This document shows, in pieces, positions 13,034-63,551 of a DNA stretch of 64,000 bases (position 1 is the first letter of the stretch; each line of letters begins with the position of its first letter). The translations under genes were made by a program, and so were the position numbers. The DNA is from Tribonema minus (Eukaryota; Sar; Xanthophyceae; Tribonematales; Tribonemataceae): positions 372,001 to 436,000 of the forward strand of contig JAFCMP010000023.1 of NCBI GenBank assembly GCA_017506865.1, read 5' to 3'. The notes under the pieces are model-generated. The model worked only from the letters and a program-made list of their open reading frames with translations. It ran no database searches and was not told the DNA's origin.

Positions 13034-16000
13034 CTATGAATCCTGCTTGAGCTGCTGCACGACGCGGTTGAGGCGGTGCTGCATGCCGTTGGCGAGCGAG
13101 ATGTTGGCGGCGCCGACCTGGTCGGGCGGCATCGCGAGCACCGTGCGCACGTCCTGCAGCGCGTAGCGGTAGCGCTCGATCGCCTCGAACGCCTGCGCGC
13201 GCCGCACGAGCGCCTTGACGTTCCCCGGCTCGACCTCGAGGACCGCGCTCGTGTCCTCAATCACGCCGTCAAAGTTGCTCAGCTGCTTGTAGCACGCGGA
13301 GCGGTTGCTGAAGCACTTGAGCGCGAGGGCGTGGTGCCTGTCGCCGAGCGCGTCGATGCACTGCGTGTACTTCTTGATGGCGTCCTCGAACTGCGCGCGC
13401 TTGTAGAAGTCGTCGCCCTCCTCCTTGAGGTGCTCTGTCCGGCTGAGCCCTGACTTGCGCGCCTTCTCCTGCGCCTCAAACTTTGGCTGCGGCGGGCAGG
13501 GAACGAGGCAGGGGGGGGGGTCAGCGAATCCTCATCTTCACTCTCAGGGGTGGCTGGCATCACAGCAATGTGTGTTCTGCGATGCACTGCTGGCATCGCG
13601 GCATTGTGATTTATGCAGTTCATTGTAACGACCGCAACGGTGAGCTGACATTGTCAGCCATATGAAATCGAGAAAAAACCGGCATGTATTGTCAATCTGT
13701 GCAGGAGTCCACACTAGGCTAGCTTCCTCTGGCAAACCAGGCATGACTGTCACGATTGTCGTCTACTGCAGTACGAATTCATATTGCACATACTGGCACT
13801 ACTGGCGAATTACCGGGTGTTGCGACCTGATGCATGCTGCTGCACATCATCATGGGCAGACTACAACTTGAATGGGGCGGGTCATACGGTCCTTCTCAGC
13901 GCACTCGTAAACGTCATTTGTACCAGTGGAGCCCACTGCCGCATGGCTGGATGCGAGCATGGTGCCCAGAACAAGCACCACCCGAAACACGCTCCGCTGA
14001 TGTACAACGTGGACATGCACCATGAGCCACTGAGCCATACCAAGACCCCCTAACACATGACTGCATGTGTAATGAGCGGTATGCAATGCACATCAAGAGA
14101 CTAGTTGCGGCGCGCATCAGCAGCCGAAGTGCGGCGCGCGCGCACTGTCGCAGCACGCTTGCCGACCCTCTCTTCCTAGCCTCGCCTCTCTTTATCAGCA
14201 TGTGATTGCGTGCCACTACTACTTCAACAACAGTCCTGAACCTCGACAGCAGAAATGAGAGTAGGACACTCAAGGGAGGTACACGCCCACATGGCAGCAA
14301 CGTGTAAACTTCTATGTGAGTGTGGGTGTGTACCATAGTGGTGATAGCTCTTATGCGGGTATAGGTACACGCTGGTATGGCCAAACATGTAGAACATACA
14401 ATATACTTCTATATCTCTCTGTGTGTGTGCGCGTGCGGTATACTGGTGAAACCCAAAGACTGACCTGTGCGACCCGCAGTATGCGCTGCACGTCCGAGGT
14501 GCCCGCGTCTAGTACCGGTGATAGCTCTCGCATGCGGACGTCCACGCTGGATATGGCAGCACATGTACATATACATAAACATACACATACATACATCTCT
14601 GCGTGCATGTGTGAGGCGAAACCAAAGACTAACCTGTGCGACCCGCAGGATGCGCTGCACGTCCGAGTTGCCCGCATCTAGCCGCAGCGCCGAGTCGCAC
14701 AGCTTGACTGCGTCGCCGTAGTCGCCCAGCTTGAGCGCTGTTTCCGCCTGCCCAATCAGCTTCGCCACCTTGTCCGCCCGCAGCAGCTCGTCGATTTCCT
14801 GCAGGACGCGATCATGAGTGGCTTTAGCACGGATGGTCAGGTTCTGCCAAGGCGACTGATGTGCATTTCAAGTGACATCACTAATCAGTTGGGGCTGCGC
14901 ATGATTGGGCGCATTGCTGTTATGCAAAGCGATCTTTGCAGCCACTCCATACCACGGTGTTTCACGAACTTCAATAATCCAGCTGAATTTGTAACACTAC
15001 CACCATCGCTGCGGTAAAGCCTGAGGTGCCAGGCGATGGAGCCTGGTGTGATGACTTTCATGCGCGTACCAGCGCCAGTTGCGCCCATGCAAAAACTCTG
15101 CTGCCTGTCAGAAATCTGCTGTCCATTACCCACAGGATTATTCAGGCAAGCGCGTGTGCCTCCCGCGAAACGAGCAGCGGCAATGCGCAAGGCATGTGCG
15201 TGTGTGCCTCCCTCAACGCGAGCGTCAGCACAAGCGGCGCGCAAAGCCCCCGTGCAACCGTGACGGGGCACTGGCACAGCGTCCGGGCTGCACCTTACGA
15301 CAACGGAAACTCCTCAAGCGCTTGCGCGCACACGCGCGCACCTTGAGGTTCTTTTTCAAGTCCGCGTTGCGCGGCTCCACGGCGAGGCCGCGGTTGAGCG
15401 TGTCGCGCGCGCCCTCCAGCTCGTTGAGGTTCTTCTGCGCGGTGGCCATGCGGAAGTAGCCCTTGACGAACGTCTTGTCGACGGTGACGCACTGCTTGGC
15501 GTCGTCGCGCGACTGCTCCCACATGTCAAGCCCCGCGTAGCTCGCGCTGCGGTTCGACCAGTACGTGTGGTTGGCCGGGTCGATCGCGATCGCCTCGCCG
15601 TACTTCTCGATGGCTTTTCTGTAGTCGCCCGCCTTGAAGGCGGCGTTGCCCTCGCTGCGCGCCGGCGCCGCGAGCGAGAGCAGCGGTTTGGAAGGTCATG
15701 CAGTGCATGGTCGTGTCAGTCGCCGTGCGCGGTGGTCAGATGATGTGAACGCCGCGGACGCCAGATGCTGCAGTGACTGCTTGTGTGTTAGAAATTGCGC
15801 GGCGGTAGGTGATGCTGCTGCATGTCATCCTGGCAATAGTCGCTATTATCACACGGTGCAAACACTGGGTGGTGCCTCTCCGCTATGAGTAACGGCTGGT
15901 GCAAGAGTCTGTCAAGAGTCTGTCACAACACCGAGTGCCTGGTTGCATGCGCCTCCATGTTGCTGATATTAACCGGATACGGGGTGTCAAAGCGCTTGCC

Positions 16001-16424: not shown

Positions 16425-16606
16425 GGTAGAGCTGGATGTTTTCCCAAGTAAAGGCGACCGACCACTTCCTGAGGCACTGGTAAGCAGCAGATGCACTCCT
16501 CAACAAGCCGCGCAGTGCCAGTCGCCAGCTCCAAGGTTGTTCGAGAAGTTAACTTTTGAGCGCTGCCACAGTTGAAGTCTTGGCGAAACTTCAGAAAACA
16601 AAGACC
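16425..16606. promoter_or_regulatory. Divergent promoter, TPR protein / membrin
   Basis: Only 182 bp separate the two start codons. The heptamer TTGAAGT lies at 16572-16578, about 30 bp before the membrin ATG. No TATA box is obvious. Confidence 0.6.
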
Positions 16607-23140: not shown

Positions 23141-25817
23141 TTACGACCACAGCTCCTGCACGTAGCGCCCCTCGGCGTGCAGCCGCTGCATGAACGCCTT
23201 GGCGTCCGCGTCGTCCAGGCCGCCCGCATCCTTGGCGACGTCCGCGAACGCCGCCGCGACGTCCGCGCCCATCGCCGTGCCGCCGCACACGTACACGTGC
23301 GCGCCGCCGTCGCGCAGCAGGCGCCACGCCTCCGCGCCGTGCTCGCGCAGCCGGTCCTGCACGTAGACCTTGGCGGCCTGGTCGCGGCTGAAGGCGGTGC
23401 GCAGCGCGGTGAGCGTGCCGTCCGCGAGGAACGCCTCCAGCTCCGCGCGGTACAGGTAGTCGCGCTGCGCGCTGCGGCAGCCGAAGTAGAGGATGGCGGC
23501 GCCGCGCGCGCGGCGGTGGCGGCGCTCCTGCGGCGGCGGCGGCGCGAGCGGCGGCAGCGGCGTGAGGAACTGGGGTGATTGCGGTGGCAGGGGATGAGTC
23601 GGGTGAACGGTGTTTACAGCGGCTTTTGGCTCTTGGTGAAGGCTGCATTCCAAATGATGGCCGCCTGTTGAGGCTGGGGACTAATGGTCAACGGCATGTC
23701 TGGTGAGCTACAACATGACAAGCTCCGCAAACCAGATCAACAGTGGTGCTACAACCATCTGGTGGCGGCTGCTTGAATGGTGTCAACAAGTGTGCACGAG
23801 TTGGTGCAAGACTGCCACGTACATGTACCAGTTGTAAGTGATGGTTCGAGACATTAAGTGGTGCCTGAAATGACATCATTGAAGGCACACCAGTGAGCTA
23901 TGACCATCAGCGTGCTTGCGGGCACTAGCGGCACCAATTGCGAGCACGGTCATGGCCCAGGGACGAATACGCACTTGAGGCCAGGCTCAAGTCTTGCCAC
24001 AGAGACGTTGAGCTGTCGGGACTGAAGACCACCTACTCAAATGACTCAGCTGCGGACTCAAGACCACAGAAAGAAGCGCGCCCAGCGCCTGCCGACTCTC
24101 GCAGAGAGCCAAAGCGCAACACACCCAGGCCGCATCCTGCACCACCGCCCCCCCCGCCAAACACAGCACCATCAGCAACTGCGCGCGCGAGCCTCACCTG
24201 CAGCAGCGCGCGCATCGGCGCGATGCCCGTCCCCGGCCCCACCAGTATGATGGGCACGGCGTCGTCGGCGGGGAGGCGGAACGTCGATGCGCGCACGAGC
24301 GCGCGCAGCGGCGCGCCCGGCGCCTCCAGCGCCGCCAGGTGGCGCGTGCACAGGCCGTGGAAGCGCCGCCCGCCGCCGCGGTCCTCGCGCAGCAGCGCGA
24401 CGGTGAGGTGGACGGCGCGCGGGTGCGCGGCGGCGCTGCTGGCAATGGTGTACTCGCGCGGCTGCAGGTGCGGGACGGCGTGCAGGAGGTGCGCGAGGGG
24501 GACGCGCGCGCTGCGGAAGTCGCGCGTGAGCAGCTCCGCGAGCGTGCGGCGCGCGTCGGTGACGAAGGCGCGGAACTCGTCGCGCGCGCCGCGCGAGACG
24601 AGGCGCGCGAGGCGCGCGCGCTCCGCGGGGTCCGCCGCGAACGCCGCCAGCCTCTCCACCGTGCCCTTGCGCGGCACGCCGCACACGTCCACGTAGCGCG
24701 TCAGCGCCTCGCGCACGGTGCACGGCGTCGGGAACGCTGCCTTGTCGCCGCCGCTGCCGTGCTCGATCGTGAACCACTGGTCCAGGCGGTACCCCTGCGC
24801 CTGCGCGAGCGCCTCGACGGCGTCGGCGGGGTTCTCCGGCAGCACCACAAAGTTGTCCGCGGTCTCGTACGCGAGGTCCGTGCCGTCGAGCGAGACCTCG
24901 ACGTGGCGCGTGCTGCCGCCGTCCTCCGTCCACGCGCGCAGCTCGCGGTTCACGACCACCGTCGCGGAGCGCCCCTGCCAGTAGTAGCGCGTGGAGGCCG
25001 CCGCCTCGTACTCGGGTGTCGGTGCCAGCGCCGCCGCCTCCGCGTTCGACAGGAAGTGCAGCGCGAAGGGCAGCTCCGCGAGCAGCAGCGCCTCTGGCGG
25101 CGCCGCGGCGTCCGCCTCGAAGCTCGGCACGCCCTCCGCCTCCGGCGCCACCGCCGCCCACATTTTCTCCTTCCACGCCTCAAAGTCGTCCTCGAGCGTG
25201 CCATCGTCGTCGCCCTCGCCGTACTCGAACATGAGCTCCGCGCCCGCCTCCGCCAGCCCCGCGTGCGTCGCCTTGCCGGTGCGGTTGTAGTGCTCGTACT
25301 GCCGGTTGCCGAGGCCGAACGCGGTGTAGCGCAGGCCCGTGGACGCGAGAGACGCGTCCTTGCCCGCCTGCTTGAGCCAGTCCATGAAGGCCATGGCGTT
25401 GTCCGTGGGGTCGCCTTCCCCGTACGTCGCCATGATGAAGATGGCCTTCCCCGCCTCCGCTAATTGAAATTCGTTGAAGTCCTCCAGGTCTACCACCTGA
25501 GTGTTAAAGCCTTTTCTCGCTCCCTCTGCAGCAAGGGTCTTAGCAAAACCCTCCGCCGTGCCTGTCTGGGAGCCGAAGTAGATGCTGAGCGGCCCTGCAG
25601 GCCAGCGTTCGCTGTCGTCGATGGCGTGCTGTGCTTCTCCGTTGGCCTGCGCTGCTTTCTCTTGCCTGCCTTTCTTCAGCAATAGAAAGCTGGCAACAGC
25701 TGTCACCACTGCTCCGAGCGTTAGCCCTGCGCAGATGAACACCATGCCATCGTTGGACGCATGGCTCGCCATCATCGTAGCCAACCCAATGGCTGACTCC
25801 ACACCTCTCTCGGCCAA
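23141..25817 (-). CDS. NADPH-cytochrome P450 reductase (682 aa)
   Basis: Two exons (minus), 25817-24198 and 23569-23141, give 2049 nt exactly. The enzyme passes electrons from NADPH through FAD and FMN to P450s, heme oxygenase and related ER enzymes. The N-terminus has one membrane anchor (about residues 24-46, FICAGLTLGAVVTAVASFLLL). The FMN-binding flavodoxin domain starts at 81 with FGSQTGTAEGFAKTLAAEG and includes IMATYGEGDPTDNA and FGLGNRQYEHYN. The FAD/linker domain follows, with REYTIASSA as the FAD-binding box, then ILVGPGTGIAPMRALLQ and ILYFGCRSAQRDYLYR of the NADP domain, HVYVCGGTAMGADVAAAF, and the aromatic C-terminus VQELWS that stacks on FAD. The linker between the last two exons is Pro-rich. 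The gene is complete. It is head-to-head with guanylate kinase. Confidence 0.96.
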
Positions 25818-26137
25818 GGCCCCACAGCCCGCGCTTCGCGCACTGGCGCAGAGTCACAGTGCAGTGACTGCGGTATTCTTTTCAGACGATAGCACTCCAG
25901 ACAACCCCACAACAACACTGCAACAACAACTCTCTCTCTCAGCTCTCTTATTCCAGTTGAAGTGTGCTGTGGCAAGTCACCTCCTTCTCGAAGTCGCTGG
26001 CTCTGAGTGAGAGCAAGCACATTGCGCTCGTTCGCATCGATGCAGCTCATTTGGACCACCTAGCCCTTCCGGTCCGGAGATTCTTGAATGTCACCGCACC
26101 TTGAAGGCCACGCAGGCCCCGGCGCGCCTGTGTTGTT
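25818..26137. promoter_or_regulatory. Divergent promoter, P450 reductase / guanylate kinase
   Basis: 320 bp separate the outermost start codons (377 bp if the second kinase ATG is used). TTGAAGT occurs at 25957-25963. Short CAA and CT repeats lie at 25913-25946. Confidence 0.55.
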
Positions 26138-30036: not shown

Positions 30037-30044
30037 AGCCGGCG

Positions 30045-37300: not shown

Positions 37301-37905
37301 CAGCACCTTTACACCAGCTCCACGCGCGCTTTGTAGGCATCATCAGCCTTCCTGTCAGAGTCGTTCATTTCCTTACACGCGCGGTCTGGGTACTGTGGCA
37401 CTCTTTGCTTTTATGCATGCATGTGCTGCTCCCTGTTTTGGGGGGTTGGGGGGCAAGAGCCAGATGCTACAGAGCCACACACCAACACTTGCACTTGCAG
37501 TGCAGCGTCCTTGATAAGCAACCTTCACTGCGAACCATCAGCACTCCCACACGAGCTCAACGCGCGCTTTGTAGGCATCAACAATCTTCCCTTCACAGCG
37601 ACCCCCCCCCCCCCCCCCCCCCCCCCCGCGCGCAGCTGGTCGGCGGCAGCGTGCGCAACGCGGACGAGCTGAGCGTGCACGAGTTCCTCAAGCAGGCCAA
37701 GGCGTACGACCTCGCCAGCCGCACGCGCCTCGGGCGCCTGCTGCGCAGCACCGTCATGGCGGAGGCGACGCACCCGCTGCCCGTCATCCGCGCGCAGGAG
37801 CTCGACACGTGGTCGCGGTCGCCGCAGTACCTGGGGGTGCTCAAGCGGGGGGCGGAGCTGGTGGACGCGGGGCCAGTGGCGCCGCCTCCCCCCGTTGCGC
37901 GGTGA
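34350..37905 (+). CDS. M48-family zinc metallopeptidase, plant/cyanobacterial type (366 aa)
   Basis: Exons 34350-34619, 34774-34860, 35145-35252, 35550-35641, 35971-36244 and 37636-37905 give 1101 nt. Residues ~1-75 look like a chloroplast or mitochondrial transit peptide (Arg/Ala/Ser-rich). The mature part reads HPFDQEATAALKRLPGL, VLVGPHQLQSIHKSLLQA, EVYVRQNPTPNAYTLAVSG, then the zinc site HELGH (residues 202-206) with the third ligand Glu254 in AELSCDRAALL, and a C-terminal ATHPLPVIRAQELDTWSRS. This matches the soluble-type M48 proteases of plastids and cyanobacteria rather than the multi-TM CAAX protease. The role is probably organelle protein turnover; no substrate is known from sequence. 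The start at 34350 was preferred over an upstream in-frame ATG (34239) because the peptide after it looks like a targeting sequence. Intron 5 holds a striking ladder of repeats. Confidence 0.92.
36186..36560 (+). repeat. Ladder of copies of the M48 exon 5 donor junction
   Basis: The exon end plus donor (36186-36254, coding ALLVAQDVNVVVSTLLK then gtgagtcag) is repeated at 36280-36346 with only a few changes (ALLVAQDVNAVVSTLLE then gtgagtcgg). A third, decayed copy sits at about 36362-36432 (cagagctcagctgcgat...gtgactcagac) and weaker echoes at 36515-36560. Each copy still carries a GT donor-like site. Confidence 0.92.
37130..37601 (+). repeat. Three-copy repeat near the end of M48 intron 5
   Basis: A block reading gcgaaccatcagcac...acg/ccagctc.acgcgcgctttgtaggcatca..atcttcc occurs at about 37278-37360 and 37518-37600, with an older partial copy at about 37137-37200 (cacgagctccacgcgcgctctgtag). 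The spacing of the last two is about 240 bp. Confidence 0.85.
37602..37627 (+). repeat. Poly-C tract (26 nt) before the last M48 acceptor
   Basis: A pure C run ends 8 nt before the 3' splice site at 37635. It takes the place of the usual mixed polypyrimidine tract. Confidence 0.95.
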
Positions 37906-42900: not shown

Positions 42901-45900
42901 ATGTTTCAAGTGGAACCGCTGCTGTTATACAGTTCAGGGCGTCTTCACGTTGCGGCAAGGATGCTCCGCTGCCTCACATCAGGCCTTTCTTCAAGGGATC
43001 GACATCTGTGCAGTGCGACCAAGCATCTGGCCATCTGGCGGTTCACGCACTCTCTGGGTGGTTTACTAAGAGATGTGCCTATAAACCTCTGACAGTGGTT
43101 TGCAGTCGTCATGATGACGTACCGCAGATACTGCACTCAAAACCTCAAATACTTGGAAGTGAGATGCACAGAAGGACCATGTTGAAGAAGGCACACCCGT
43201 GCCACTTGTCACCGGCCATGCATGGGGCAGCAGTACAGCAGTGCTCATATCGGTGCTGTGTGCTTCGCTTCTGTGATGGAGTGCATAGTCCTGCTCCACC
43301 TAATAGTCTAGCGGCGTCATCAGCTGAGATTCTGCTTCACTGCACCGCTGCACCGCTGGCCTGTGTAGGCAGTAATTTAATTGTGCTAGAGAGAACACTG
43401 CTGTCCCTACCTGACAGTGACGTCTTCACCTGTAATGGTCAAGTATACACTGTGAGCTACTTGAAGTATGGCTGTTGCTCCAGGTCTGAGCAGTGGGCAG
43501 GGTGCGCCATGATTCGTCATACAAGAAGGCGGTCCATTGAGGGTACTGAGCATTGCTGCATGCTGCTTTGACTCATCCTGTCTGTGCACAGCATATTGTT
43601 GTCCGCGCTGTGTCACGAATGTCATGGGTGTTACCATATTCCTGGGCTGCGTCGAGGTCTGGAGAGAGCGTAAGGCTATGTACAAGAGAATCTAAACGTA
43701 TGAGTTCAAGTTGGCTCGAAGAAAGCGAACTGGATTGCAGCTGCTGCAGATTGCAAAAAAATCATGCCTGACCTGTCGGAATTTCACAACTCCACAATTG
43801 GGAGACCAAAAACAACTAATTTTCTGGATGAAGGTTCCCAAAGTTCACAATGAAATATCGACCTACTTTCGAAGGACATGTATAAGAATCTATTCTGCTG
43901 AGTCAGCGTCGCGTATCGCGTTCAGCAAGCTGGCAACTTAGCGCCGTCATATGAGCAGCAGCCACTCGCGTGCACACCTCGAGATCATCACCCCTACCAC
44001 AGCCAAACAACTTTAACTCACCATCGACTTCAACTTCCAATACCACACCTACCCCCTGCCCCAGGTCCGAGCAGTGGGCAGGGCTCAGATCAGCGCCGTA
44101 TACTACGTGAGCAGGCTGGCGGCGGAGCAGGGCATCCCCGTCATCGCCGACGGCGGCATCATGAACACGGGCTGCGCGACCAAGGCGCTGTCGCTCGGCG
44201 CGAGCGTCGTCATGATGGGGGGCATGCTGGCGGCAACGGAGGAGGCGCCCGGCGACTACTTCTACCAGGTATGCGCGTGTGCTGCATGGCTGCAGTACCG
44301 TATGTATGACCTGTTGCTGGAAGGGAGGCCCCCCCGGCGATGACTTCTACCAGGTATGCATGTATGATGTGTAGTTGCACATGTACCGTATGTATGACGT
44401 GTCACTGGACGCGCCGGCGACTACTTCGACGGGGTGTGCACGTATGCCGCATAGCTGCATACTATAGGTACATGCTGTCGACTAAAGAGGCCCCCCGCGA
44501 CACTTGCGCCAGGCATGTACGCATGCACCGCCATTTGGGTGCAGCCCGGCGGACCGGCGCAGAAGAAAAAGTCAGAGTTCAACTCTAGATTGCTGATTGC
44601 TGCAGAAGACTGGACATGTCAGGTACGCTTCTTACAGTCAGCGGAGGGGCCTGACAAACTCACTACACGGGCCCGCAATTAGCTGCGGTGCCCAGATGAA
44701 GCCGAACTCACGGCTGCTGAACTCACAACCTGAGCAATGATGCCTCTGCGCGGTTGATGCCCACCCCATACCCAACTGCATGACTCGCGGCAGCATTTGT
44801 CTGTTCACCATCGGCAGTGCCAGACTTGCCTTCCACGTACTTGATACGTGAACTTCCATGCATAGTCTATACCCGCTAGACAGCTATGTACCTACACATG
44901 CGTGTGTGCGGCTGACCGCTGGCATGCGCATCGCTTGTGCTGCGCCGCGCCAGACTACTTTGTACACACATGTGTGTGTGTGTGTGGCTGACATCTATGC
45001 GGCCATCGCTTGTGCTGCGCCGTGCAGGACGGTGTGCGTACGAAGCACCACCACGCTACGACGTCATGTATTGTCTACTCGTATATTTGTGTGGCTAGGC
45101 GCTGACACGCACACCGCCCTCGCCTGCGCCGTGCAGGACGGCGTGCGCGTGAAGCGCTACCCCGCCGCAACGTCCTTCACACATGTGATCCTAAATACCG
45201 TACCTCTACGCCATGTACACCTGTGCGTGGGGGGCTGAGCGCTGACACAAACGTCGCCCTCGCCTGTGACGTACAGGACGGCGTGCGCATGAAGCACTAC
45301 CACGCGACGACGTCGTTCGCCGTGCAGAGCCGCGCGGACGGCCTCGCAGTGCCCGCGGGATCCTCCGCAGTGGTCACGTCCAGCGGCGTCAGCGGCCTGG
45401 TGGTCGACAGGGGGTCGCTCGACAGGTGCGGCCGCTTGATCTATCTCAGTAGAGGTCATTTGTTGATCGCACTTGGCGTTCTTGCGTTGATTTCACTCGC
45501 CGCGCGAAAGAGAGTCCGGAGGCAGAGCAGCCAGGGCGGCACGGCTGGCCTGGATCGTGTACGGGGGTCCTGATGGGGGGTGCGGCCAGATCGAATCCAC
45601 TGATGCTGTGTACTGTCATCCTTTTCATGCTGCTCCACGCTTCTAGTCATCCTGGGCTGTCCTAGTCATCGTTTTTGTAGTGCATGCTGCTGCAAGCTTG
45701 TCAGTCGTACGCAGACTGGTCGTGGTCGGGGGGTGCCGCGCCTGGTGCGGTCATGTGGATTCATCTCTTGTTGCACACTGGGCACTGATGCTTTGGCTAC
45801 ATGCAACACAGAAAGCCGTCTGGAGGCAGTTTAAGAGCAGTGCAGCCAAATCTGAACGTCACTGTGATTGCCGTGAATGTCCTTGCGCATGCCGCGCTTG

Positions 45901-46263
45901 CACAGTGGTGGCATGTCGTCAGATTGCAGTCAATCTTGTCAGGGGCGCCACTGTATCTTGTTATCCCTTTCTTGACCGTGTTTTGTTGCTGAAGTCAGTG
46001 CGCCAGTAAGGTATTCACTGCTGCCCATTAATACCCCCCCCCCCCCGTCCCCTCCCATACCCGCCCCCCCCTGGCGCAGGTTCATCCCCTACATGGTCCA
46101 GTCGGTGCGGCACGGCTACCAGGACCTCGGCGTGAGCAGCCTCAACGCGGCCCACGAGCAGGTCTACAACGGCACCGTGCGCTTTGAGATCCGCTCCGCC
46201 AGCGCGCAGAAAGAGGGCGGCGTGCACGACTTGCACTCGTACACGCGCAAGCTGTTTGCCTGA
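39961..46263 (+). CDS. IMP dehydrogenase homologue (519 aa) with Ser in place of the catalytic Cys
   Basis: Exons 39961-40125, 40304-40786, 41755-41973, 42531-42686, 44065-44268, 45277-45425 and 46080-46263 give 1560 nt. The fold is clear: [42 protein letters not shown], a tandem CBS (Bateman) insert (about residues 100-230, [28 protein letters not shown]), [79 protein letters not shown] and VEGG-like [16 protein letters not shown] oxidises IMP to XMP, the committed step to GMP. However, the catalytic loop reads GSVSTTQQ where the family has GSIC(I/T)TQ: residue 337 is Ser (TCC at 42672-42674). The mobile flap between the KHYHATTSF and DRGSLDR segments also lacks the Arg-Tyr pair needed for hydrolysis. 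It may be a regulatory or moonlighting pseudoenzyme, or a divergent enzyme. Confidence 0.9.
41903..42139 (+). repeat. Duplicated exon 3 donor junction in IMPDH intron 3
   Basis: About 90 bp spanning the end of exon 3 and its donor (41903-41993; coding [15 protein letters not shown] then gtgggtagc) is repeated at 42053-42139 with roughly 90% identity. The copy still encodes [17 protein letters not shown] followed by gttggcggc. Confidence 0.95.
42842..42961 (+). repeat. Intronic tandem repeat, two 57-60 bp copies
   Basis: The unit atgtttcaagtggaaccgct...tacagttcagggcgtcttcacg..g.ggcaagg occurs at 42844-42900 and 42901-42960, head to tail, differing by a 3-bp indel and two or three substitutions. 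It is followed by a third truncated start (atgctccgctgcc). Confidence 0.95.
43478..43525 (+). repeat. Distant copy of the IMPDH exon 5 acceptor junction
   Basis: The stretch ctccaggtctgagcagtggg and the following cagggtgcg copy the real exon 5 start at 44058-44105 (ccccaggtccgagcagtggg, cagggctca), including the AG acceptor. The two lie about 580 bp apart in intron 4. Confidence 0.8.
44240..44545 (+). repeat. Four-unit ladder of the IMPDH exon 5 donor junction
   Basis: The exon end GCCCGGCGACTACTTCTACC plus its gtatgc donor (44240-44320) recurs at about 44325-44408 (ggcgatgacttctaccaggtatgc, very similar), 44409-44480 (ggcgactacttcgacgg ggtgtgc) and 44484-44545 (gcgacacttgcgccagg catgtac). 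Units are about 70-85 bp and become less similar with distance. Confidence 0.9.
44910..45325 (+). repeat. Four-unit ladder of the IMPDH exon 6 acceptor junction
   Basis: The real exon 6 start (45232-45325: gctgacac...cgccctcgcctgt..cgtacag then GACGGCGTGCGCATGAAG) has copies at 45093-45175 (cgccgtgcag then GACGGCGTGCGCGTGAAG), 44985-45060 (cgccgtgcag then GACGGTGTGCGTACGAAG) and a poor one at 44910-44985. Each better copy retains an AG acceptor and 40-60 nt of exon. Only the last copy continues as an open frame to a donor. Confidence 0.93.
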
Positions 46264-51703: not shown

Positions 51704-54700
51704 ATGGGCAAGGGAGCAGCTCAGCCAGCAGCCCCAGGGCGGTGCCAGATCACCTGCAGGCTGCACAAGGGCAACTACATTGGCGGCGAGCAGGTCGCAG
51801 GATTTCTGTCCATCACAACGCCTGCCTCCGATGGCGCCTCCAGCGCTCTGATACTCACGCAGGTGCATTCTCAGCTTGCCATGCAAGAGATTGGATGTAG
51901 AGCGCTGTCATGCGGGTTTCAAAAAGTACGAAAGGGTGATGGCGTTGTCCTGGGTGCACCGTCAGAAGTCCTCGACTTTCACTGGCTGCAGGATTCGCGC
52001 GTGACGGCTCATCTAAGTATTGTGGACGGCGCCGATGTCGTACACAGCCGCCCTGTGTTGTAGTTGTAGGCCGTCGTCGTAATGTCAACACCGAAGGCAC
52101 CAGCAGCAGCAGCAGCGGCTGCGGCATCGTCCAGGGAGTGAACATAAAAGTTTCATGACGTGCAATGTCTGCATACGACCATCGTCCTCACCGACGAAGA
52201 TCAGGCAGCGTATGATGAAACTGCGAGTCAGGACACCTTCATGTGTACTTCATGTCCTGAGTCGCTATTCTTCGATGTTTTCTTTGTTGCTGACTTCTTG
52301 GTACGCAGCCCAATAGAAATAGCAAGTCAGGACATGAAAGTGAACATGAATGTATCTTGGCTCGCAAATTCTTCTTACGCTTCCCAATTTCGTCGGTGAT
52401 AACGATCCTCTCTCCGCACACGGGGATGGGTGTAAACGAAACTTTAAGTCAAGATACCTTCGCATGTTCACCCACTTGGAGATCGCCGCAGCTGCTGCCG
52501 CAGCCGCTCGTGCTTTTGTTGCTGATACCACGACGACAGCCTACGACTACATCACAGGGCGGCGGCTGTATACGACAGCACTGTCCACCTCCACCATACC
52601 TGAGCACGAGCCGTCGCGCGCGAATCCTGCAGCCAGTGAAGGCCAACAACTTCTGACGGTGCACCTGGCTTTCACCCAGGACATGCGCGAATCCTGCAAG
52701 CAGCGAGGGTCAAGGACTTCTGACGGTGCACCTGGCTTGTTGCACCCAAGGAAACGCGCAAACGTGCAGCGGGACTCGTTAGGCCAACGTTGTGTGTGTT
52801 TGCTGCGGCAGGCTAGCGTGAGGGCGCACGGGCATGCCAGGGTGGACCCGCGCTGGACCAATCTGCCAAAGCCGCTCAGGACCTTGTATCAGCAGGACAA
52901 GGAGGAACCTGCCGGCGATAGCAGCAGCCCTTCGGTGCGCCGGCGAAGACCCAGGTGAGCAAGCTGTGCGTCGTTGATGTCGAGGACCGCTCCAAACAAG
53001 TGCGTTGCTGACCACAGGCATGCGATGCATACGCAACCTGCAGTGCGTGAATGATGTGCTGCCTCTTTTTCTGCAAGTCACTAGCGCCTGCGCCGCAACT
53101 GCTGCTTTTTGCAGACTTGCACCAAACTTGTTTGGCGGGCCTTGAGATGATTGCTGCGCTGGGCTTCACGTGCGTCAGCAGGCACTGTGAAGTTCGCCTT
53201 TCATGCTTTTCATACCCTCAAAGCAACTGGCATGGAAGTATCGTTTTTGAACTCTGCATTTTTGGTAGCCAGTGTGATCAACTGCTGTGTATATGCTTGT
53301 GGTGCTGTGAAGCCTGTCGCCAACACATTTGCTTGTAGATGGTGTGCTTCTTGGCCTGGACACCACCATATGGATTCGGGGTTTGGCTTGGGGTCTAGGA
53401 TTAGCGTCAGGGTAAGGTTGAGGGTAGATCACGCCCCCCACACACCCTTTGAGTTTCTGTTTGTTTTGTCCGATGTGCAGCTTGCTTGATGGACAACACA
53501 AGCAGCGCATTGACCTCGTGCCGATCTCGTGGCGCCGCACGCAGGTACAAGGACCTGGACAACGCCAACACGGTGTGCATCTTCAGCACGGACTGCGTCG
53601 TCCTGCCCCTCGACGACGACGACAACAGCAGCAGCACTCATCCCGTGGACACCGTCAATGGCGACGGCGACGGGGCCGCCGACGCAGCGCCGCCGCCGCG
53701 GCAGCAGCAGCAGCCGCGGCCGTCGAAGACCTACGCGTACTCGTTCACGTTCCGCGCGCCGCGCGACGTGCCGCCGTCCTTCAAGGGCGTCGTCGCGCGC
53801 TACCTGTACTTTGCGACCGTCACGGTGACGCTCGCGCGGCACGCGGCGTCGCCCGCCGCGGGCTGGGGCGTCGGGCGGCTGCTCGGCGCGGTGCGGCGGC
53901 GCAGCAGCGGCGGCAGCGGCAGCGGCAACGGCGGCGCCGAGGCGGTGACGGTCACGACGGAGGAGCACAGCCTGCACCTGCCGTTTGCGCTGCTGGCGAC
54001 GGGGCGGCCGCCGCGGGAGGCGCCCGCGCTGCCGCCGGACGTGTGCTGGGCCACGCTGCAGGTGCGGCCGCTGCTCTGCTGCTGCTACGGACAGTATCTG
54101 CAGTGTTTGCCTGCATGCAACCGGGGCGTGGTGTCAATGTTGCGCTGGCAGTACACGGGGGGGGCTGTTGTATGCAGCAGCTCATCAGCGGTGCAGGGCT
54201 GCGTCTGCACAGTAGGATGGTGGAGCTTGCAGCAAGCGCGCTACCCCAAATTGGCCTGCCAGGGCAGCGACTACAGTTTCCTACGCTCCGCGTCACCTTG
54301 TGGCAGAGCCCAATGAATCTCACCGAGGGTTTGCGCAGTGAGAGTTGCTGGCGATGGCCATATCTGCACCTGATGTTGGCGTTGAAACTAGGCGATGCCA
54401 TCGCTGTTTGGTGCCGGATCATGACACCATGTACACAGGCTTCACGGTGCCACTTTTCTTGACAGTTCTGTTGTTGACGCTGCAGCAATATGCGTGCTGC
54501 CGCCGCTGCTGCCGACCACGCCACCCGCAGGCGCAGCTGGAGCACGCATCGGAGGCGGAAGACGGCGCGCAAGGCAGCAGCGGCAGCGGCAGCGCCAACG
54601 CTGGGCAGCGCCCGCTGCTGCTGGCACGCACGCACGCGTCCGTCTGGGACCTCCAGGGCAAGGCGCGCGGCGGCACGGGCGGGCACCCGCTTGTCTTTGG

Positions 54701-55394
54701 CATCCGCAGCGGCGACGCGCGCATCCTGCGCTTCATGCTCTACAAGCGCGAGTTTTGGCCGGGCGACCTCGTGCTGGGGACGTTTGACATGGCGGGCGCG
54801 GACTGCACGTGCCACCAGATCTGCGCGTGCCTGCTGGTCGAGGAGCGCGCCGCCGCCGCCGCATGGCACGGAGACGGCGGCGCCGCTGCCGCCGCCGGCA
54901 GGGGCGGCGGCAGCGCAGCGGCGGCGGCGGAGGCGGCGGCAACCCAGGCGCACCAGCGCATCGTGGACGTGTTCCACGAGCTCGGGCCGTGCGCGCAGAC
55001 GACGAGCATGGCGCTGGCGCTGCCGGCGGACGCACCGCTGTCGTTCGCCACGGACCTCGACGCGGTGCGCTGGCTGCTGCGCTTCGAGTTCACCATTGGC
55101 GCCGCGCGCACCGCCGCCGCGCCGCCGTCCGCTGCGCCGGCGGCGGCGGCGGACAACCCCACGCCGCGCGGCGGCGCGCGGCCCAGCCGCACCAATTCGA
55201 TTCTGTCGATCGGCGGGCCCGGCGTGCTCGCGGGTGTGAGCGAGCCCGCTGCGGCGGCGGCGGCGCCGGAGCAGTACCGCGTGCTGCGGTGGGAGGTGCC
55301 GATAGCGGTGGTGACGCCGGCGGCGTCGGCGGAGGCGCCGCGGCCGCCGTTTGCCAGTCAGGAGGGGGCCGTGGAGCGCACCGCCTTTTGCTGA
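51704..55394 (+). CDS. RGP1: RGP1 homologue, subunit of the Ric1-Rgp1 Rab6/Ypt6 GEF (560 aa)
   Basis: Exons 51704-51862, 52812-52954, 53545-54061 and 54531-55394 give 1683 nt. The N-terminal part resembles the arrestin-like beta-sandwich of the family ([20 protein letters not shown]; later [19 protein letters not shown] and [11 protein letters not shown]). The C-terminal half carries the Rgp1 signature: [37 protein letters not shown] (about residue 349) and [24 protein letters not shown] (about 425), then [11 protein letters not shown]. Rgp1 and Ric1 activate Ypt6/Rab6 for retrograde traffic to the Golgi. Ala/Gly-rich insertions (for example after VEERAA, and between the core and the last strand) are expansions of GC-rich codons. 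Intron 1 (949 bp) is almost filled by a palindrome. The gene is complete. Confidence 0.9.
51950..52735. repeat. Long imperfect palindrome filling RGP1 intron 1
   Basis: The left arm (about 51950-52285) reads ggtgcaccgtcagaag..., cactggctgcaggattcgcg..., and its reverse complement is found at about 52300-52670 in the same order over the whole length, including acagccgccctgtg, cggctgcggca, caccgacga and catgtcctga. The arms are about 330 bp, roughly 75-85% identical by eye, with almost no loop. A third copy of the outer ~55 bp lies at 52678-52735 in the right-arm orientation. No transposase frame and no clear target duplication are visible. Confidence 0.88.
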
Positions 55395-56319: not shown

Positions 56320-58843
56320 TCAAAACACGATGCTCTGGCTGCCCATGTGACCCTGCTCTTGCGCAAACTCATCGCGCTCGGGCGCAGACAGCAGCGGTTC
56401 GCTTCGCGCGCCGCCGGTGCCGTTGGTGGGGGCGGCGCCTGGGGCGTCTTTGAGGGTCTGCCATTCAGCGCGCGCTGCCTGCAGAGGACAGTGCGGTGGG
56501 GCATAGAGTCTTGAGACTGAGCACATCAAAGCATAGCATACGGGATCATGTCCAGCGATTAGAGGCATGCAAAACAAGGCGCCTGGGGCGTCCTTGAGGG
56601 TCTGCCATTCGGCGCGCGCCGCCCAAAGAGAACGGTGGAGCGGGGCAAAAGATCGTGAGGCAGAGCACAACAGGGCACACGCCAGCATGTCCAGCAAGGA
56701 GCAGCACGCCTGCGGAGCACGGTGCAGTGGGGCACGGTAGTTTGAGGCAGAGCGCAACAGGGCATGCACACACAAGCATGTCCAGCAAGAAGCAGCACGA
56801 GCTGGCTACCCACAACGTGTGTGTGACAGTTGGAATGCGTATTGCTGAGGCTGAGAGAGAGATTGATGGTGATGTGACGCAAGCGCATTTGCCAAAGACT
56901 GTGCAGGTTTTGGCAAAGGTCAAAAAGGGGGGGGGGGGGGCACAGCCAGCCCTGGCAAGCCAGCAACTAAAATGCGCTGTCGCGTGACTAAAAAGTCGCG
57001 CCTTGGCAGTTACTTTTGTACATACAGAGCGCAGGCACACGCACCTGCATGTTGCTCACGCCATCGAAGATGATATAGCACGCAAGCAGCAGCCCCAGCG
57101 CGCTGTCGGCCCACCATACAACCTGCGGCAGCGAGCATGAACGAGCCGGACATTGCCAGCAGGCGCGCGCTGAGACAAGGGCATGTATGTATTAATCCTG
57201 GTGGCATGTAAAGCGCGGCCATACGGGGGGCGCAGCGCTGAGCAAACTCTGCTGGCAAGAAGCTGCTCAAACGAAGAGTGGATGGGCGTCGCAGGGTATG
57301 CTCAGCAGCACGGCGCTGTGGGGGGTGCGCAAGTATGGTGAGGTGATGGAAGTCATGTTGTGTGACACTCAGCTGTGAGATCACCACCAGCAAGCCAAAT
57401 GACGACGACATGCATGCTGCCACATAGTTGCAGACTGCCATTTACAAGCACAACACTGCGCCGTTGGCAGACACAGTCGAAACATGCAAAGCACCCTCCT
57501 CTCCCGAAAGCACCCTCCTCTCCTGACAATCACGATGGTAGGCACCTTAGGCAGCACCACAAGGCACATCAAGCAGCAGCGCGGGCACATACTCCCTGTC
57601 ACTCACCCCCTGTATCAGCAGCGCCAGCGCCACGCACGCCGACACGTACCCCGTGCAGCGGCTGCAGTGCGCGTCCGTGATGACCACAATGCTCTGCAGC
57701 TGCGCCCCGTAGAACATCTTGTACTTGTACAGGACGAGGCTCGTGGTCGCCCCAAACACCGCCACCCACAGGCCCGCAGCGAGCCGCGTGTGCGGCGTCG
57801 CCCAGACGAGGTCCAGCAGCGCAGTGACAAGCAGGTTCGCGCCCAGGAGCTGCATGAGCAGCGCTATCGCCAGGCTCGCGCCCACCTCCACCCTGGCGCT
57901 GCGGGCCCTGCCCTCGCGTCGCGCGCAGCAGTAGCAGGGCGACGAGCGGTCAGTGTCAGGGGGTCACGCGGAGCGTGGCGGCTGCTGAATATGCGGGACG
58001 ACGGTGGGAGTGGTGGCTAGCGGCCGGTATGGCAACCGCGAGGTTACGCCGCAGCCAGCGCCAAGCGGCGGCACGTACATGCAGCGTCAGTACAGCCAGA
58101 CAAGGCGTCGCTGGCTGCGGCGTGCATGATGAAGCGCACACCCGCTGGACGATAGCGTGCATGCTGCCTTTGATCCATGGCAATGGGCTGATGGGGACTA
58201 ATACATATGTGCAACTCATCTGCAAAGCACAATCGCACGAAGGCCTGTGCCATGACTTCACACAATGTATGCTTGCCAGCCAATTGAGACCCTCACCTGG
58301 CCGTTGTCTGTGACATGAAGCGCCATCGGTAAAGCACCAGTAGGCCCCCTGCAGCAAGACGCGCAGGTGGTGAGAAACCCATGTTCATCAAGGGGACTGT
58401 ACACCAGGCCCTACGATCAAATATAATGAAGCCAGGCGAGCAGTGCAAGCAATGCATTGTGCATGTCAACCGGGCATTGTGAAGGAGCGATGTGTCTCAC
58501 CTACTGTTTCTGCCAGGCCCAGGATGGTTATGCTCAGCACACCATCGCTGCCGTTCCCTGAGCCTGCAAGGAGGCTGGCACAGCATCGTGACATTGTGAG
58601 GACCGGGATCAGTTCACAATGCACGTAATCAGCGCGATGAACCGAATCAACAAGTAGGGTAGGTATGACATACCTCAAAACCGTCTCCAGAACGCCCACC
58701 CACACAGTGGCATATGCCGCAAATGTGATGTGCTCCACCGCACTGTATCCCGCCGCTACAGCCGCCGCTCTTTGGCGAGCACCGTTGTATCTCACTCGCA
58801 CCGACTCACTTCCTGTGAACACTAGATCCACAAGGCGACTCAT
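56320..58843 (-). CDS. TMEM163/cation-diffusion-facilitator-like membrane protein (274 aa)
   Basis: Exons (minus) 58843-58674, 58574-58501, 58348-58297, 57898-57607, 57122-57045 and 56478-56320 give 825 nt. Six hydrophobic segments can be read: AAGYSAVEHITFAAYATVWVG, GVLSITILGL/GLLVLYRW, VEVGASLAIALLMQLLGANLL, LAAGLWVAVFGATTSLVLY, TGYVSACVALALLIQ and VVWWADSALGLLLACYIIF. The pattern VLSLLAGSGNGSDG in helices 1-2 and ITDAHCSR plus WWADSALG in helices 5-6 is the CDF/TMEM163 metal-site pattern (Asp and His in TM2 and TM5 of CDFs bind Zn). TMEM163 in animals exports zinc; metal transport here is inferred. The cytosolic tail starts AARAEWQTLKDAPG and ends GSQSIVF. Length is close to animal TMEM163 (289). 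Confidence 0.82.
56425..56770 (-). repeat. Copies of the exon 6 acceptor junction plus tandem units, TMEM163-like intron 5
   Basis: On the sense (minus) strand, the real exon 6 start (56430-56490, coding ARAEWQTLKDAPGA after its AG) is duplicated at 56577-56640, where ARRMADPQGRPRR is read in another frame from nearly the same bases. Further into the intron, two units of about 88 bp (about 56631-56715 and 56716-56795), each with gtggggc...gaggcagagc.caacagggca, repeat the flanking intron. Confidence 0.85.
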
Positions 58844-62100: not shown

Positions 62101-63551
62101 AGACCAGGGGTACGCTGTATAAGACCGGGGTAGGCACGCGTCGTATAAGACGGGGTTGTAAACAGAGGAACGGCAGTTACGCAAACTTCAAGTCGTTTCA
62201 GCATAATTATCAAGTGTGCTGCAGCACATACGCAGGTGGTGTGCAAGCTGCGTTGCTGTGAAACCCTCAGCAGCCGTGCGTTCGCTGTGCCAAGGAGGTG
62301 TGCGAACCAGGCGTGCTTAGGCAAGAGCTGCAGAACGTCTATTTGTGGCGTGCTGCTTGCAAGCAGCAGAACTTCTGCAGTATTCATCATGCGATATATG
62401 CGACCGCAGCCACCCACGCGTGCAAGACGGGGGGTACGTTGTATAAGACCCCCCCCTCAAATAAGGCCCCCGTTGGCTCTGCATGAGCGTCGCAGCGCGA
62501 CTAGACGGGGGGGTTTTATACCCCGTGATCTACGGTAGTGGTAGGCTTGCTGGTGCCTGACAGTTTCACGGCTTTCTGCAGAGTGATACGCCAAGTCCGT
62601 CCTCAGGCGTACGTCCCCCTGGCGCAGCCCTTGCTGGTGCATGCGACCGTTACGCACTGCTCGCCAAATGCAACAGCAGTCGGCGCTGGACGGCTGTGAC
62701 TTCAGGTCACCCTCTGGCGAGAGGAGAGGTTTAAGCCGCCTCTCAATGAGACGTACAAGACCTGGCGTACATGCATGCGTGCAGAGCCGCCTTTCACCGC
62801 CAGCTTCAGCAAACACGCTGCACTTGTTTTAGTCTTGACGGTCATCAGCGAACAATGGTCGCTCGCCCTGCGCGCGGAAGCTTTCGTGCGAAGCTTGTCC
62901 TGTTGCACTTGGTGCTATGCGCCAGGTTGAGAGCGCGTCTGCCCCGTACTCACGAGTTGCAAGCGCACAGCACCTGGGCTGTGGCGTCAGCAACGCTCCC
63001 ACGATACATGCCCCATTCCCGATCACCACCCACTGTAGCGCGCTGAAGCATCCAGATCGCGAGAGCACCGCACCCCCTTTCTTGACAAGCGCGCCCCGCA
63101 ACAAGCACGTCCCTCCCTGCACATTCCTCCCCGTGCTGCTGGCACAGCACGTGCCGTTTGCATCACGCGCTGCTGCACAGAAGCTGAGCGCTGCTCACAC
63201 ACAACGACCGCACATGCCACTGTTTGTCGCTTACGATCAGGTATGCCGCCGCGTTCCTGGCTCAGCGGCGCCTGTTGCGCCCCTTCTCGCGCATGACGCG
63301 CTGCCCTGCGAACGCCACAGCCTTTCCCGCACACAACAGCTGTCCCAAACTCAATAGCTGTGTTACCGCTGTGTTTCCTCGCCCCTCGCGCGTTGCGGCA
63401 GGTGCTGAGCGCGTGCACGCCCGCGTCGCTGGCGCAGCGGCGCCTGGTGCGACTCGCGTCCGATCCTGACATACCCGTGCAGGACCCCGAGCCGTCCAGC
63501 ACGCAGGAGGAGCGTGCGGCAGCGCTGCTCAGCCAACTTCTCGCCTATCAG
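59102..63551 (+). CDS. Gpt2/SCT1-type glycerolipid acyltransferase (PlsC fold), 3' end incomplete
   Basis: Exons 59102-59237, 59400-59619, 60303-60429, 61492-61797 and 63402-63551 are in frame (939 nt so far). Motif I is VNHGNSLTDAV (His45, Asp51), the spaced H-x5-D form used by yeast Gpt2/Sct1 rather than the usual NHx4D. WKYVVGGVGTVPIQRR follows, then motif III LFPEGQSRYQSGLAPLKTG (about residues 120-138) and ACGITYTHREKFRSDVCV. This family acylates glycerol-3-phosphate or dihydroxyacetone phosphate at the ER, the first step of membrane and storage lipid synthesis. The C-terminal part (two membrane spans in yeast) is not assured: a hydrophobic frame VYCGVLLLLQLLQTLLG after an AG at 63651 could be the next exon, but its stop at 63789 is early. 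The rest may lie past the window. Intron 4 holds a TIR element. Confidence 0.85.
61459..61480 (+). repeat. Poly-C tract (22 nt) before acyltransferase exon 4
   Basis: A pure C run ends about 11 nt before the AG acceptor at 61490-61491 of exon 4, again standing in for the polypyrimidine tract. Confidence 0.95.
61996..62535. mobile_element. 540-bp non-autonomous element with perfect 28-bp terminal inverted repeat, TA flanks
   Basis: Left end CCGTAGATCACGGGGTATAA then AACCCCCC; the right end is its exact reverse complement (62508-62535). Each end is flanked by TA (61994-61995, 62536-62537), as expected for a TA target duplication of the Tc1/mariner superfamily, though a longer TIR including the TA cannot be ruled out. 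Inside, the word GTATAAGACCCCC or GTATAAGACGGGG recurs about six times, and two ~31-bp direct repeats (near 62095 and 62425) share gcaagac..ggggtac..tgtataagac. There is no open frame for a transposase, so this is a MITE-like element sitting in intron 4 of the acyltransferase gene. Confidence 0.85.
63246..63460 (+). repeat. Duplicated piece of acyltransferase exon 5 in the preceding intron
   Basis: The exon 5 stretch gcgtcgctggcgcagcggcgcctggtgcg (63420-63451) is matched at 63251-63280 by gcgttcctggctcagcggcgcctgttgcg. The copy lies about 170 bp upstream in the intron, close to the real acceptor side. Confidence 0.75.

Follow-up and report, generated by a model that had tools for sequence, protein, structure and literature searches.

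The window analysed here is a 64,000-nt stretch of the genome of the xanthophyte Tribonema minus (GCA_017506865.1, contig JAFCMP010000023.1, positions 372,001–436,000, forward strand). A sequence-only reading of it had claimed that, in genes for a TPR protein, an M48 protease, an IMPDH homologue, a TMEM163-like protein and an acyltransferase, a 50–120 bp piece spanning a true splice junction is copied into the adjoining intron. We found copies of a junction or exon end in the adjoining intron of all five genes, and in all but the acyltransferase gene the copied piece does span the junction.

In the TPR gene (reverse strand; gene model and TPR domains), the real exon end at the donor lies at 14634–14681 and its intronic copy, which includes the donor and reaches the junction, at 14465–14512 (45/48 identical, spacing 169 bp), the duplicate pair measuring 68 bp at 91% identity. 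In the M48 protease gene (forward strand), the exon end at 36186–36244 is copied together with its donor at 36279–36337 (55/59 identical, spacing 93 bp). In the NCBI Tribonema minus protein P0241, STLLK is followed directly by LVGGS, which means that the donor at the end of 36186–36244 is used, and the copy, although open in frame, is missing from this protein. Deeper in the same intron, TRF detected a 47-bp tandem pair (36532–36629) that looks, by eye and unscored, like an older donor copy, and the last intron of the gene holds intron-only repeats, three related pieces of approximately 60–85 bp (37141–37598).

The TMEM163-like gene (reverse strand; gene model, Pfam Cation_efflux) starts an exon at the acceptor at 56434–56478, and the acceptor junction is copied at 56578–56622 (42/45 identical, spacing 144 bp), with GG in the copy where the real junction has AG. 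Duplicate pairs reveal more repeats lacking an exonic part in the same intron (56628–56799), the exonic side being 0.50 identical at the next unit. In contrast, the acyltransferase copy (63244–63297, forward strand; Pfam Acyltransferase) of the exon start at 63414–63470, which is 44/58 identical, ends 12 bases before the junction and has no AG. The first gene of the window, known from an ab initio gene model only, carries a tandem pair near its predicted donor (4589–4807, forward strand; junction at 4643), in which exonic positions 4589–4631 are copied at 4706–4750 (39/45 identical), 12 bases short of the junction.

The exons of the IMPDH gene (forward strand) could be placed with the EukProt protein P0121, which differs from the joined exons at 1 position in 457 aa (read by eye). 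The end of exon 3 at its donor (41899–41973) is copied with the donor in intron 3 (42047–42122; 70/76 identical, spacing 149 bp, score 63 versus 11 for the reversed sequence), although the gene finder mis-placed this junction in the automatic counts. Intron 4 contains an intron-only tandem pair with a 60-bp unit (42843–42963) and a weak copy of the exon-5 acceptor junction (43484–43502; real junction at 44065; 18/19 identical), whose score of 17 versus 10 reversed falls under the counting threshold. Downstream of the exon 5 end at its donor (44230–44268), intron 5 has donor copies across 44316–44512 (44316–44353, 44407–44430 and 44471–44512; scores 20, 18 and 16 versus 9 reversed), the first alone reaching that threshold, and acceptor copies across 45028–45178 (45028–45065, 33/38 identical, and 45137–45178, 35/42 identical; scores 28 and 28 versus 14 reversed), upstream of the start of exon 6 at its acceptor (45277–45318). 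A further IMPDH gene is found on contig C7, its exon DNA being 79% identical to that of the gene on C23. Both genes have a copy that terminates at the same exon end. Identity between the C23 copy and its own exon is 93%, and this copy includes, by eye, two residues at which the C23 and C7 exons differ. IMPDH is atypical in having a second copy, as a search for close second copies of the TPR and M48 arrays found none. Only the outermost junctions are joined in the proteins P0121 (IMPDH) and P0241 (M48).

Frequency and structure of the copies

All counts come from one genome, that of T. minus, in a 364-kb sample made up of the window and 300 kb from four further contigs (C1, C2, C5 and C7). Gene models were obtained with a small HMM, for which the sample itself served as the training set; its placement of some exon ends was wrong (IMPDH exons 2, 3 and 4). 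A total of 55 predicted exons, each either below 25 bp in length or similar to a neighbouring exon, were discarded ahead of the counts, and any real alternative exon among them would count as a copy. We kept introns of 150–3000 bp with both flanking exons of at least 60 bp (155 of 238), searched the same strand only and removed low-complexity matches. Exon-end copies were present in 43 of the 155 usable introns, about a quarter (49 introns if low-complexity matches are retained; 43/152 if three introns that are near-identical between C1 and C5 are left out; both introns of a paralogous pair on C2 included). By contig, copies occurred in 2/38 introns in C1, 17/31 in C2, 7/20 in C5, 10/26 in C7 and 7/40 in the window.

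Alignment of introns with their flanking exons, a check that the sequence-only reading had proposed, was performed on 161 of the 238 introns and found copies at 29/161 donors and 26/161 acceptors, versus 0 and 1 when the introns were reversed and 1 and 0 when other introns were used. Likewise, 210 local duplicate pairs were found in the 364 kb, versus 0 with a reversed query. The earlier claim is thus partly confirmed, in that junction copies are a real observation, and beyond the window too.

Donor copies had been said to lie downstream of the donor and acceptor copies upstream of the acceptor, and 80 of 82 copies do lie in the intron half of their own junction (donor 38/38, acceptor 42/44), at a median distance from their source of 177 bp for donors and 227 bp for acceptors and, given the same-strand search, in direct orientation. 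Units are mostly 80–200 bp long (median 147 bp) and the exonic part of the copy is usually 25–60 bp (median 43), to which the announced 50–120 bp piece is a loose fit only. Introns with copies have a median length of 1021 bp versus 566 bp for those without, in agreement with recurrent junction duplication that lengthens existing introns. The description of the copies as ladders that decay with distance from the exon did not survive counting: 32 of 52 copy-bearing junctions have one copy only, the nearer member of 30 neighbouring copy pairs was more similar to the exon in 13 cases and the farther in 14 (3 ties), and the Spearman coefficient across the 82 copies was 0.00.

Not all 82 copies could be used in every comparison: 79 entered the forced comparison and the codon positions, 73 the identity of linker versus exonic part, 69 the linker homology and 39 the single-clock comparison. 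The linker was homologous, beating 20/20 foreign linkers, in 52 of the 69 copies with spacing >95 bp, and in twelve unit alignments homology runs through the linker and the unit includes pre-existing intron. The best conserved block is the exonic part plus approximately 5 bases of the donor. With whole-unit homology and direct orientation near the source, most copies are head-to-tail tandem internal duplications. Repair-mediated capture, which expects unrelated sequence between copy and template, is possible for the other 17 of 69, where linker homology fell below this level and proximal DNA could have been captured.

Copies and exons differ at the three codon positions by 0.103/0.108/0.178 (79 copies), as expected of a neutral copy combined with synonymous drift of the exon, and copies differ from each other by 0.174/0.142/0.201 (43 non-independent pairs); divided by three, the copy spacings fall into the remainder classes as 22/15/15. 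The splice site, described earlier as usually kept, is indeed present in most copies (GT in 29/36 donor copies, AG in 31/43 acceptor copies), but this is nothing special, as per-base retention (0.87–0.91) is close to the value of approximately 0.895 at copy positions 1 and 2, a comparison of figures only, and corresponds roughly to unconstrained drift. Neither codon positions nor GT/AG retention revealed constraint on the coding frame or splice site of the copies, which on these grounds look neutral, and coding or splice-site selection on them was rejected. The idea that they supply spare splice sites is likewise unsupported, given that GT and AG are lost at about the neutral rate and that both proteins show outermost junctions only.

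The paralogous introns on C2, whose exons differ by 6.1%, allow copies to be followed through a gene split. Donor copy B carries the same changed base in both introns and, judging by this base, is common to them by descent. There are three donor copies in gene B; gene A has a whole one plus one whose exonic part was lost, and acceptor copies number 2 versus 1. This difference at both ends indicates that turnover went on to about that split, which lends the earlier word "ongoing" some substance. Against it, just 3 of the 210 local pairs combine ≥95% identity with coverage of ≥80% of their spacing, all intronic or intergenic, and no young whole-unit duplication at a junction was found among the 210. 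Divergence between the paralogues varies by piece, being 1.6% in the linker after copy B, 7.3% in copy B, 10.7% after copy C and 13.1% in the first linkers. Copy B changed at 3/41 positions after the split, like other non-coding sequence, and was therefore not being held to the exon.

Duplications elsewhere and simulated models

The sequence-only reading placed the duplications specifically at junctions, a focus that the counts support in part. Copies were found for 45/283 exon-end 40-mers versus 143/1427 deep-intron 40-mers (4/231 in the exon interior at −100 and 16/341 in intergenic DNA), although part of this excess is expected, as the exon stays readable whereas two intronic copies both drift. 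Of the 33 introns with deep duplications, 27 also have junction copies and 6 do not (Fisher p 1.6e-11), and the proposition that deep-intron duplications are at least as common as junction copies was therefore dropped. In six simulated settings of uniform duplication, each run 3 times with up to 14 events per intron, 35–75% of introns with deep duplications had no junction copy, so that none of the six matched the 6/33 observed. The simulations are rough, with shuffled introns and the spacing of detected copies taken as unit length.

In the profile simulations (2 runs), fast-linker settings gave exon-end/deep ratios of 1.4 and 1.6, compared with 1.6 observed, and five settings with no limit on exonic length produced an excess of copies at −100 (0.044–0.112 versus 0.017 observed). 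Exonic parts are shorter than uniform breakpoints predict (KS p 5.8e-10, or 4.8e-8 with spacing capped at 150). A uniform-duplication model thus comes near yet under-predicts junction involvement. A neutral model with a single clock is insufficient on two counts, as linker identity is 0.646 versus 0.76–0.79 in five of six such settings (0.688 in the remaining one, where indels were heavy) and the correlation between linker and exonic-part identity is r = 0.00 versus 0.25–0.60 simulated (n = 39, imprecise).

Discussion

We consider the copies to be, probably, remnants of short tandem duplications made harmless by splicing, with a moderate extra bias towards junctions. Short tandem duplications, of whatever molecular source we may infer, would arise in genes, and those within an exon would presumably be purged by selection in most cases. 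A duplication that spans a junction would survive, as the outermost donor or acceptor still works and the extra copy is spliced out, which would also explain why each copy lies beyond its own junction, in the intron. Thereafter the copy would drift unconstrained while the exon remains a readable reference, making junction copies more visible than intron-only ones, and arrays would gain and lose units and exchange sequence. The moderate excess of junction-spanning arrays with exonic parts of 25–60 bp would be caused by selection against longer pieces, which risk mis-splicing, and/or by a preference for breakpoints at exon ends.

It is doubtful that the junction itself is the main seat of duplication, with breaks or replication slippage preferring splice junctions (for example at co-transcriptional R-loops) and introns growing from their ends. 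The near confinement of deep duplications to introns with junction copies speaks for such a focus, as do exonic breakpoints clustered within approximately 60 bp of the junction and copies at the same junctions of paralogous IMPDH loci. However, by the gene models 99 of the 210 local pairs neither cross nor reach an exon edge (72 intronic or mixed, 22 intergenic and 5 within predicted exons), and survivorship and detectability would account for much of the excess, with the nearest uniform setting coming within about a factor of two of the observed junction involvement. Gene conversion or unequal exchange among copies, in which the exonic part or the linker is overwritten from the exon, another copy or a paralogue, is a tentative alternative that would give the parts of one unit different apparent ages and is compatible with tandem remnants. 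Linker identity is 0.65–0.72 whether the exonic part is 0.60–0.80 or >0.97 identical (73 copies; r = 0.00), divergence of the C2 paralogues is a mosaic in neighbouring pieces, and the IMPDH copies of C23 and C7 share an exon end, yet the C23 copy matches its own exon at the 93% given above. The same means would nevertheless result without exchange if ages were clustered and linkers evolved 1.5–2 times faster than the exonic parts, copy B of C2 behaved as non-coding sequence, and the C7 and C23 copies may be independent duplications. It is rather unlikely that both processes operate together at full strength, such that T. minus introns grow inward by duplication seeded at exon ends far more than elsewhere, with quick unit turnover and exchange of short stretches between exons, copies and paralogues, and the same junctions still echo in paralogues whose linkers diverged long before (the C2 pair; IMPDH on C23, C7 and perhaps C301); exon ends would then be duplication hotspots and standing sequence donors.

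A selected function of the copies, whether as splicing enhancers or as splice sites of a spare or decoy kind, is very improbable. The conserved exonic part with its donor bases and the GT or AG kept in most copies could suggest one, but a constrained real junction paired with a neutral copy would give the same block, retention is the same as at copy positions 1 and 2, coding constraint is absent, the exonic part has gone from one of the C2 paralogous copies and three new changes have arisen in another, and P0121 and P0241 come with no inner-junction form. We give scarcely any credence to the Rogers model, under which an intron is born when an exonic AGGT segment is duplicated in tandem and the repeats would be a record of that birth. 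Tandem duplication is the agent here too, and about half of the sites read AG|GT at donors and CAG|G at acceptors; that model, however, places copies of the exon-1 end beside the acceptor, whereas all donor copies lie in the donor half and nearly all acceptor copies in the acceptor half, and the unit includes intron that already existed. The side of the copies led us to reject it. Introners, transposons or an assembly artefact have next to no likelihood. Of the 155 introns, 26 share a piece with another intron, and a dispersed piece of up to approximately 130 bp, 80–89% identical, occurs in introns 44, 48, 58, 68 and 79, all five with junction copies, but this piece is not the junction copy. 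Whole introns are common only to the C1/C5 gene copies (three introns) and, largely, the C2 paralogues, the other 32 intron pairs sharing just 22–132 bp; introners were rejected, as dispersed families of near-identical whole introns were absent from the 364-kb sample beyond gene copies. Misassembly, for its part, does not produce copies that are mostly 5–30% different from the exon and have different linkers.

Long introns occur in some lineages, and the origin of the extra sequence is often unclear. If the copies are tandem remnants tolerated through splicing, the conserved exon end is a tag that dates and sizes intron duplications, and duplication rate, unit size and breakpoint bias become measurable per intron. 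The residual junction bias, if real, would suggest that some mutation process is coupled to splice junctions. Gene finders are at risk from such copies, which score as exons; our HMM called some in IMPDH, M48 and TPR.

In the potato RdRp gene, a tandem duplication across an intron-exon boundary takes in the intron end and the beginning of the following exon, the splicing signals being duplicated too (PMC4974935); the account there is of one gene and one event that created a new intron, whereas in T. minus 43/155 introns are involved, each remains one intron and its copies seem to be silent. The review PMC3443670 and the Drosophila cases in PMC2891723 also concern short internal tandem duplications with splice-like sites, but that model predicts copies at the other side of the intron from where they are in T. 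minus, and intron gain was not seen. Frequent duplications inside eukaryotic genes, some with whole introns, were reported by Gao and Lynch 2009 (as cited in PMC4974935), and resemble ours in this respect. The T. minus duplications, local ones with a median of 147 bp and some with splice sites, have a counterpart in a published set of 824 entries; as presented, that set omits copies 50 bp or less from their template and has partial exon/intron donors in 4/824 entries, while tandem copies are the majority in T. minus and those spanning a junction are common. Internal tandem repeats of human segmental duplications (PMC2812944) are similar as minisatellite-like arrays touching gene structure, but their unit is approximately 30 bp on average, and the portion available describes them as modifying gene structure and not as junction copies hidden in introns, the form they take in T. 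minus.

Results

The sample consisted of the window and 300 kb from contigs C1, C2, C5 and C7 of the same assembly, from the yellow-green alga Tribonema minus (Xanthophyceae) (364 kb in total; the assembly holding the window and its contig, C23, has 158 Mb in 554 contigs). Genes were modelled with a small gene finder trained on those 364 kb themselves, and local direct duplications were searched as pairs of at least 35 bp, with short-period repeats masked and the reversed query as control. We found 210 local duplicate pairs, against none with the reversed query, which the gene models divided into 111 touching both an exon and an intron, 72 in introns or of mixed type, 22 between genes and 5 inside exons. 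The 60 bases at the exon end were copied within the adjoining intron at 29/161 donors and 26/161 acceptors, while controls gave 0 donors and 1 acceptor (reversed introns) or 1 and 0 (other genes' introns), and the following 60 bases into the exon were copied at only 7 donors and 3 acceptors of 161 each. After a complexity filter, 82 such junction copies remained, in 43 of 155 introns and 20 of 48 genes. Outside the window, 36 of 115 introns carry copies, so the window is no fortunate exception, and junction copies are real and common in this genome. Contigs differed strongly, from 2/38 introns with copies on C1 to 17/31 on C2.

In the window, the copies which the sequence-only reading had described in the TPR, M48 and IMPDH genes are plain on direct reading. 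In IMPDH intron 3, a repeat of the final 75 bases of exon 3 together with the donor lies 149 bp downstream (70/76 identical). In intron 5, the exon-5 donor junction is copied three times close to the beginning, one of these copies passing the counting threshold, and the exon-6 acceptor junction is copied twice close to the end. The M48 donor junction (55/59 identical) and the acceptor junction of the TMEM163-like gene (42/45) are also repeated. The acyltransferase gene does have a copied exon-start piece (44/58 identical), but it ends 12 bases short of the junction. Pfam supports the TPR, cation efflux (TMEM163-like) and acyltransferase assignments, and the M48 gene is 97% identical to an NCBI T. 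minus protein over 92% of the query. The window IMPDH differs at one of 457 residues, counted by reading, from the transcript-derived EukProt protein P0121. It represents a second IMPDH gene, with 83% identity to the NCBI T. minus protein P0122, which itself matches contig C7 exon by exon (92–99%). Two other features of the window were a large imperfect palindrome of about 710 bp (51953–52665, 70% self-complementary), in intron 1 of a gene predicted ab initio (51704–55394), and, for the CPR gene (24033–25853), a second form in EukProt (P0044), which jumps from the protein's first part into another frame and is either a splice variant or a template-switch artefact.

Donor copies lay within the donor half of the intron in 38/38 cases and acceptor copies within the acceptor half in 42/44, at median distances of 177 and 227 bp. 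Repeat units were mostly 80–200 bp long (median 147, range 79–374), with an exonic part usually of 25–60 bp (median 43). For 52 of 69 copies (12 alignments made), the intronic part of the unit, or linker, shared homology with the stretch behind the copy, which identifies them as tandem duplications taking in either an exon end and the start of the intron or an intron end and the start of the exon. Among 52 junctions with copies, 32 have a single copy and one has five. The copies had been proposed to decay with distance from the exon; in 30 neighbouring pairs, however, the copy more like the exon was the nearer one 13 times and the farther one 14 times, and the Spearman correlation across 82 copies was 0.00, so that the "decaying ladder" is not a gradient.

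Differences between copy and exon at codon positions 1, 2 and 3 were 0.103, 0.108 and 0.178 (79 copies): the copy drifts evenly over codon positions, and the exon contributes synonymous change only. Between copies the values were 0.174, 0.142 and 0.201 (43 non-independent pairs). Splice-site bases were retained in copies about as often as positions 1 and 2 (donor G 32/35 and T 31/35; acceptor A 33/38 and G 33/38), and spacings were distributed 22/15/15 by remainder of three. Protein evidence for IMPDH (P0121) and M48 (NCBI protein P0241, which may be a gene prediction) joins the outermost junctions; the M48 copy, open in frame and able to add 31 residues, is missing from P0241.

Two paralogues on C2 share an intron (sample 61.5–63.0 kb, plus strand, and 98.0–99.5 kb, minus strand), their flanking exons differing at 8/132 and 10/145 bases. 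Donor copy B is present in both, with one changed base relative to both exons common to the two, and therefore predates their split. In gene B the donor has been copied three times (A, B, C); gene A contains B, together with a C whose exonic part is mostly gone. At the acceptor, two copies lie in gene A, in 105-bp units differing at 12 positions, and one lies in gene B, along with an inserted dispersed piece. Units are thus added and removed over time, and copies can decay freely. Divergence was 2/123 in the linker after B, 3/41 in B, 31/290 after C and 16/122 between the best-matching first linkers, a mosaic that would be expected from exchange among repeats or paralogues. The dispersed piece (up to about 130 bp, 80–89% identical) occurs in introns 44, 48, 58 and 68 of C2 (sampled pieces L011–L020) and intron 79 of C5 (L021–L025); all five bear junction copies, an overlap which long introns may explain, and in one the piece sits in an acceptor linker.

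Elsewhere in the sample, C1 (L001–L010) and C5 (L021–L025) share three introns of a single gene at 99% identity, a recent gene or element copy. Intergenic tandem pairs of about 330 bp spacing (C1:188469–189117, C2:172594–173245 and C2:193892–194540) are possibly one satellite family. Telomere-like CCCTAA stretches lie within or beside introns in the C2 sample (near 179.3–180.0 kb) and the C7 sample (near 148.1–148.4 kb), some inside linkers of acceptor arrays.

Discussion

Is duplication focused on junctions, as the sequence-only reading had it? Copies were found for 45/283 40-base segments at exon ends (as intronic copies), 143/1427 deep in introns (200 bp or more from either junction) and 16/341 in intergenic DNA. 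Part of the gap between exon ends and deep segments is expected, because in an intronic pair the two members both drift, whereas an exon is held constant. Deep duplications were concentrated in introns with junction copies (123/643 segments, vs 20/784 in others), and a common count of 155 introns gave 27 with junction and deep duplications, 22 junction only, 6 deep only and 100 neither. Simulations of uniform duplication in six settings, covering purged exonic duplications, rates that vary from intron to intron and faster-evolving linkers, yielded 10–18 deep-only introns per 155, or 35–75% of introns with deep duplication compared with 18% observed. Exonic parts were also shorter than under uniform breakpoints (KS p 5.8e-10; 4.8e-8 with spacing capped). 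This leaves either a bias towards junctions, perhaps twofold, or selection acting against copies whose exonic parts are long.

Linkers do not fit a single clock, under which exonic parts at least 94% identical should accompany linkers about 86–93% identical; the 15 observed average 71–72%. In 39 nearest copies, linker identity was 0.646 and its correlation with the exonic part r = 0.00, against 0.69–0.79 and r 0.25–0.60 in six single-clock settings. Linkers evolving 1.5–2 times faster reproduce the observed means, and the misfit is due either to faster linker change or to renewal of parts of units. The IMPDH relatives are suggestive of renewal or recurrence. The xanthophyte-type genes on C23 (window 39961–46260) and C7 (C7:230156–235734), 83% alike, both carry a copy that runs up to the same exon-3 end, with spacings of 149 and 134 and exons only 79% identical. 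A diverged IMPDH-like locus (C301:517899–526681, 45–60% identity), which is a paralogue, a homeologue or foreign DNA, matches the exon-5 end twice (520619–520679 and 520793–520856, 83% and 85%); these candidate junction copies, 174 bp apart, both stop at the junction base.

We consider the feature to be mostly due to short tandem duplications, with splicing hiding those that span a junction: a tandem duplication across a junction would leave an extra copy concealed by splicing. No account of introns commonly carrying silent junction copies stands among the listed titles and abstract openings of openly licensed papers, a set without the likeliest forerunner, Gao and Lynch 2009. In the parts of the literature consulted, duplication spanning an exon-intron boundary appears as a single published case (PMC4974935), and the creation of introns through duplication is treated in reviews (PMC3443670).
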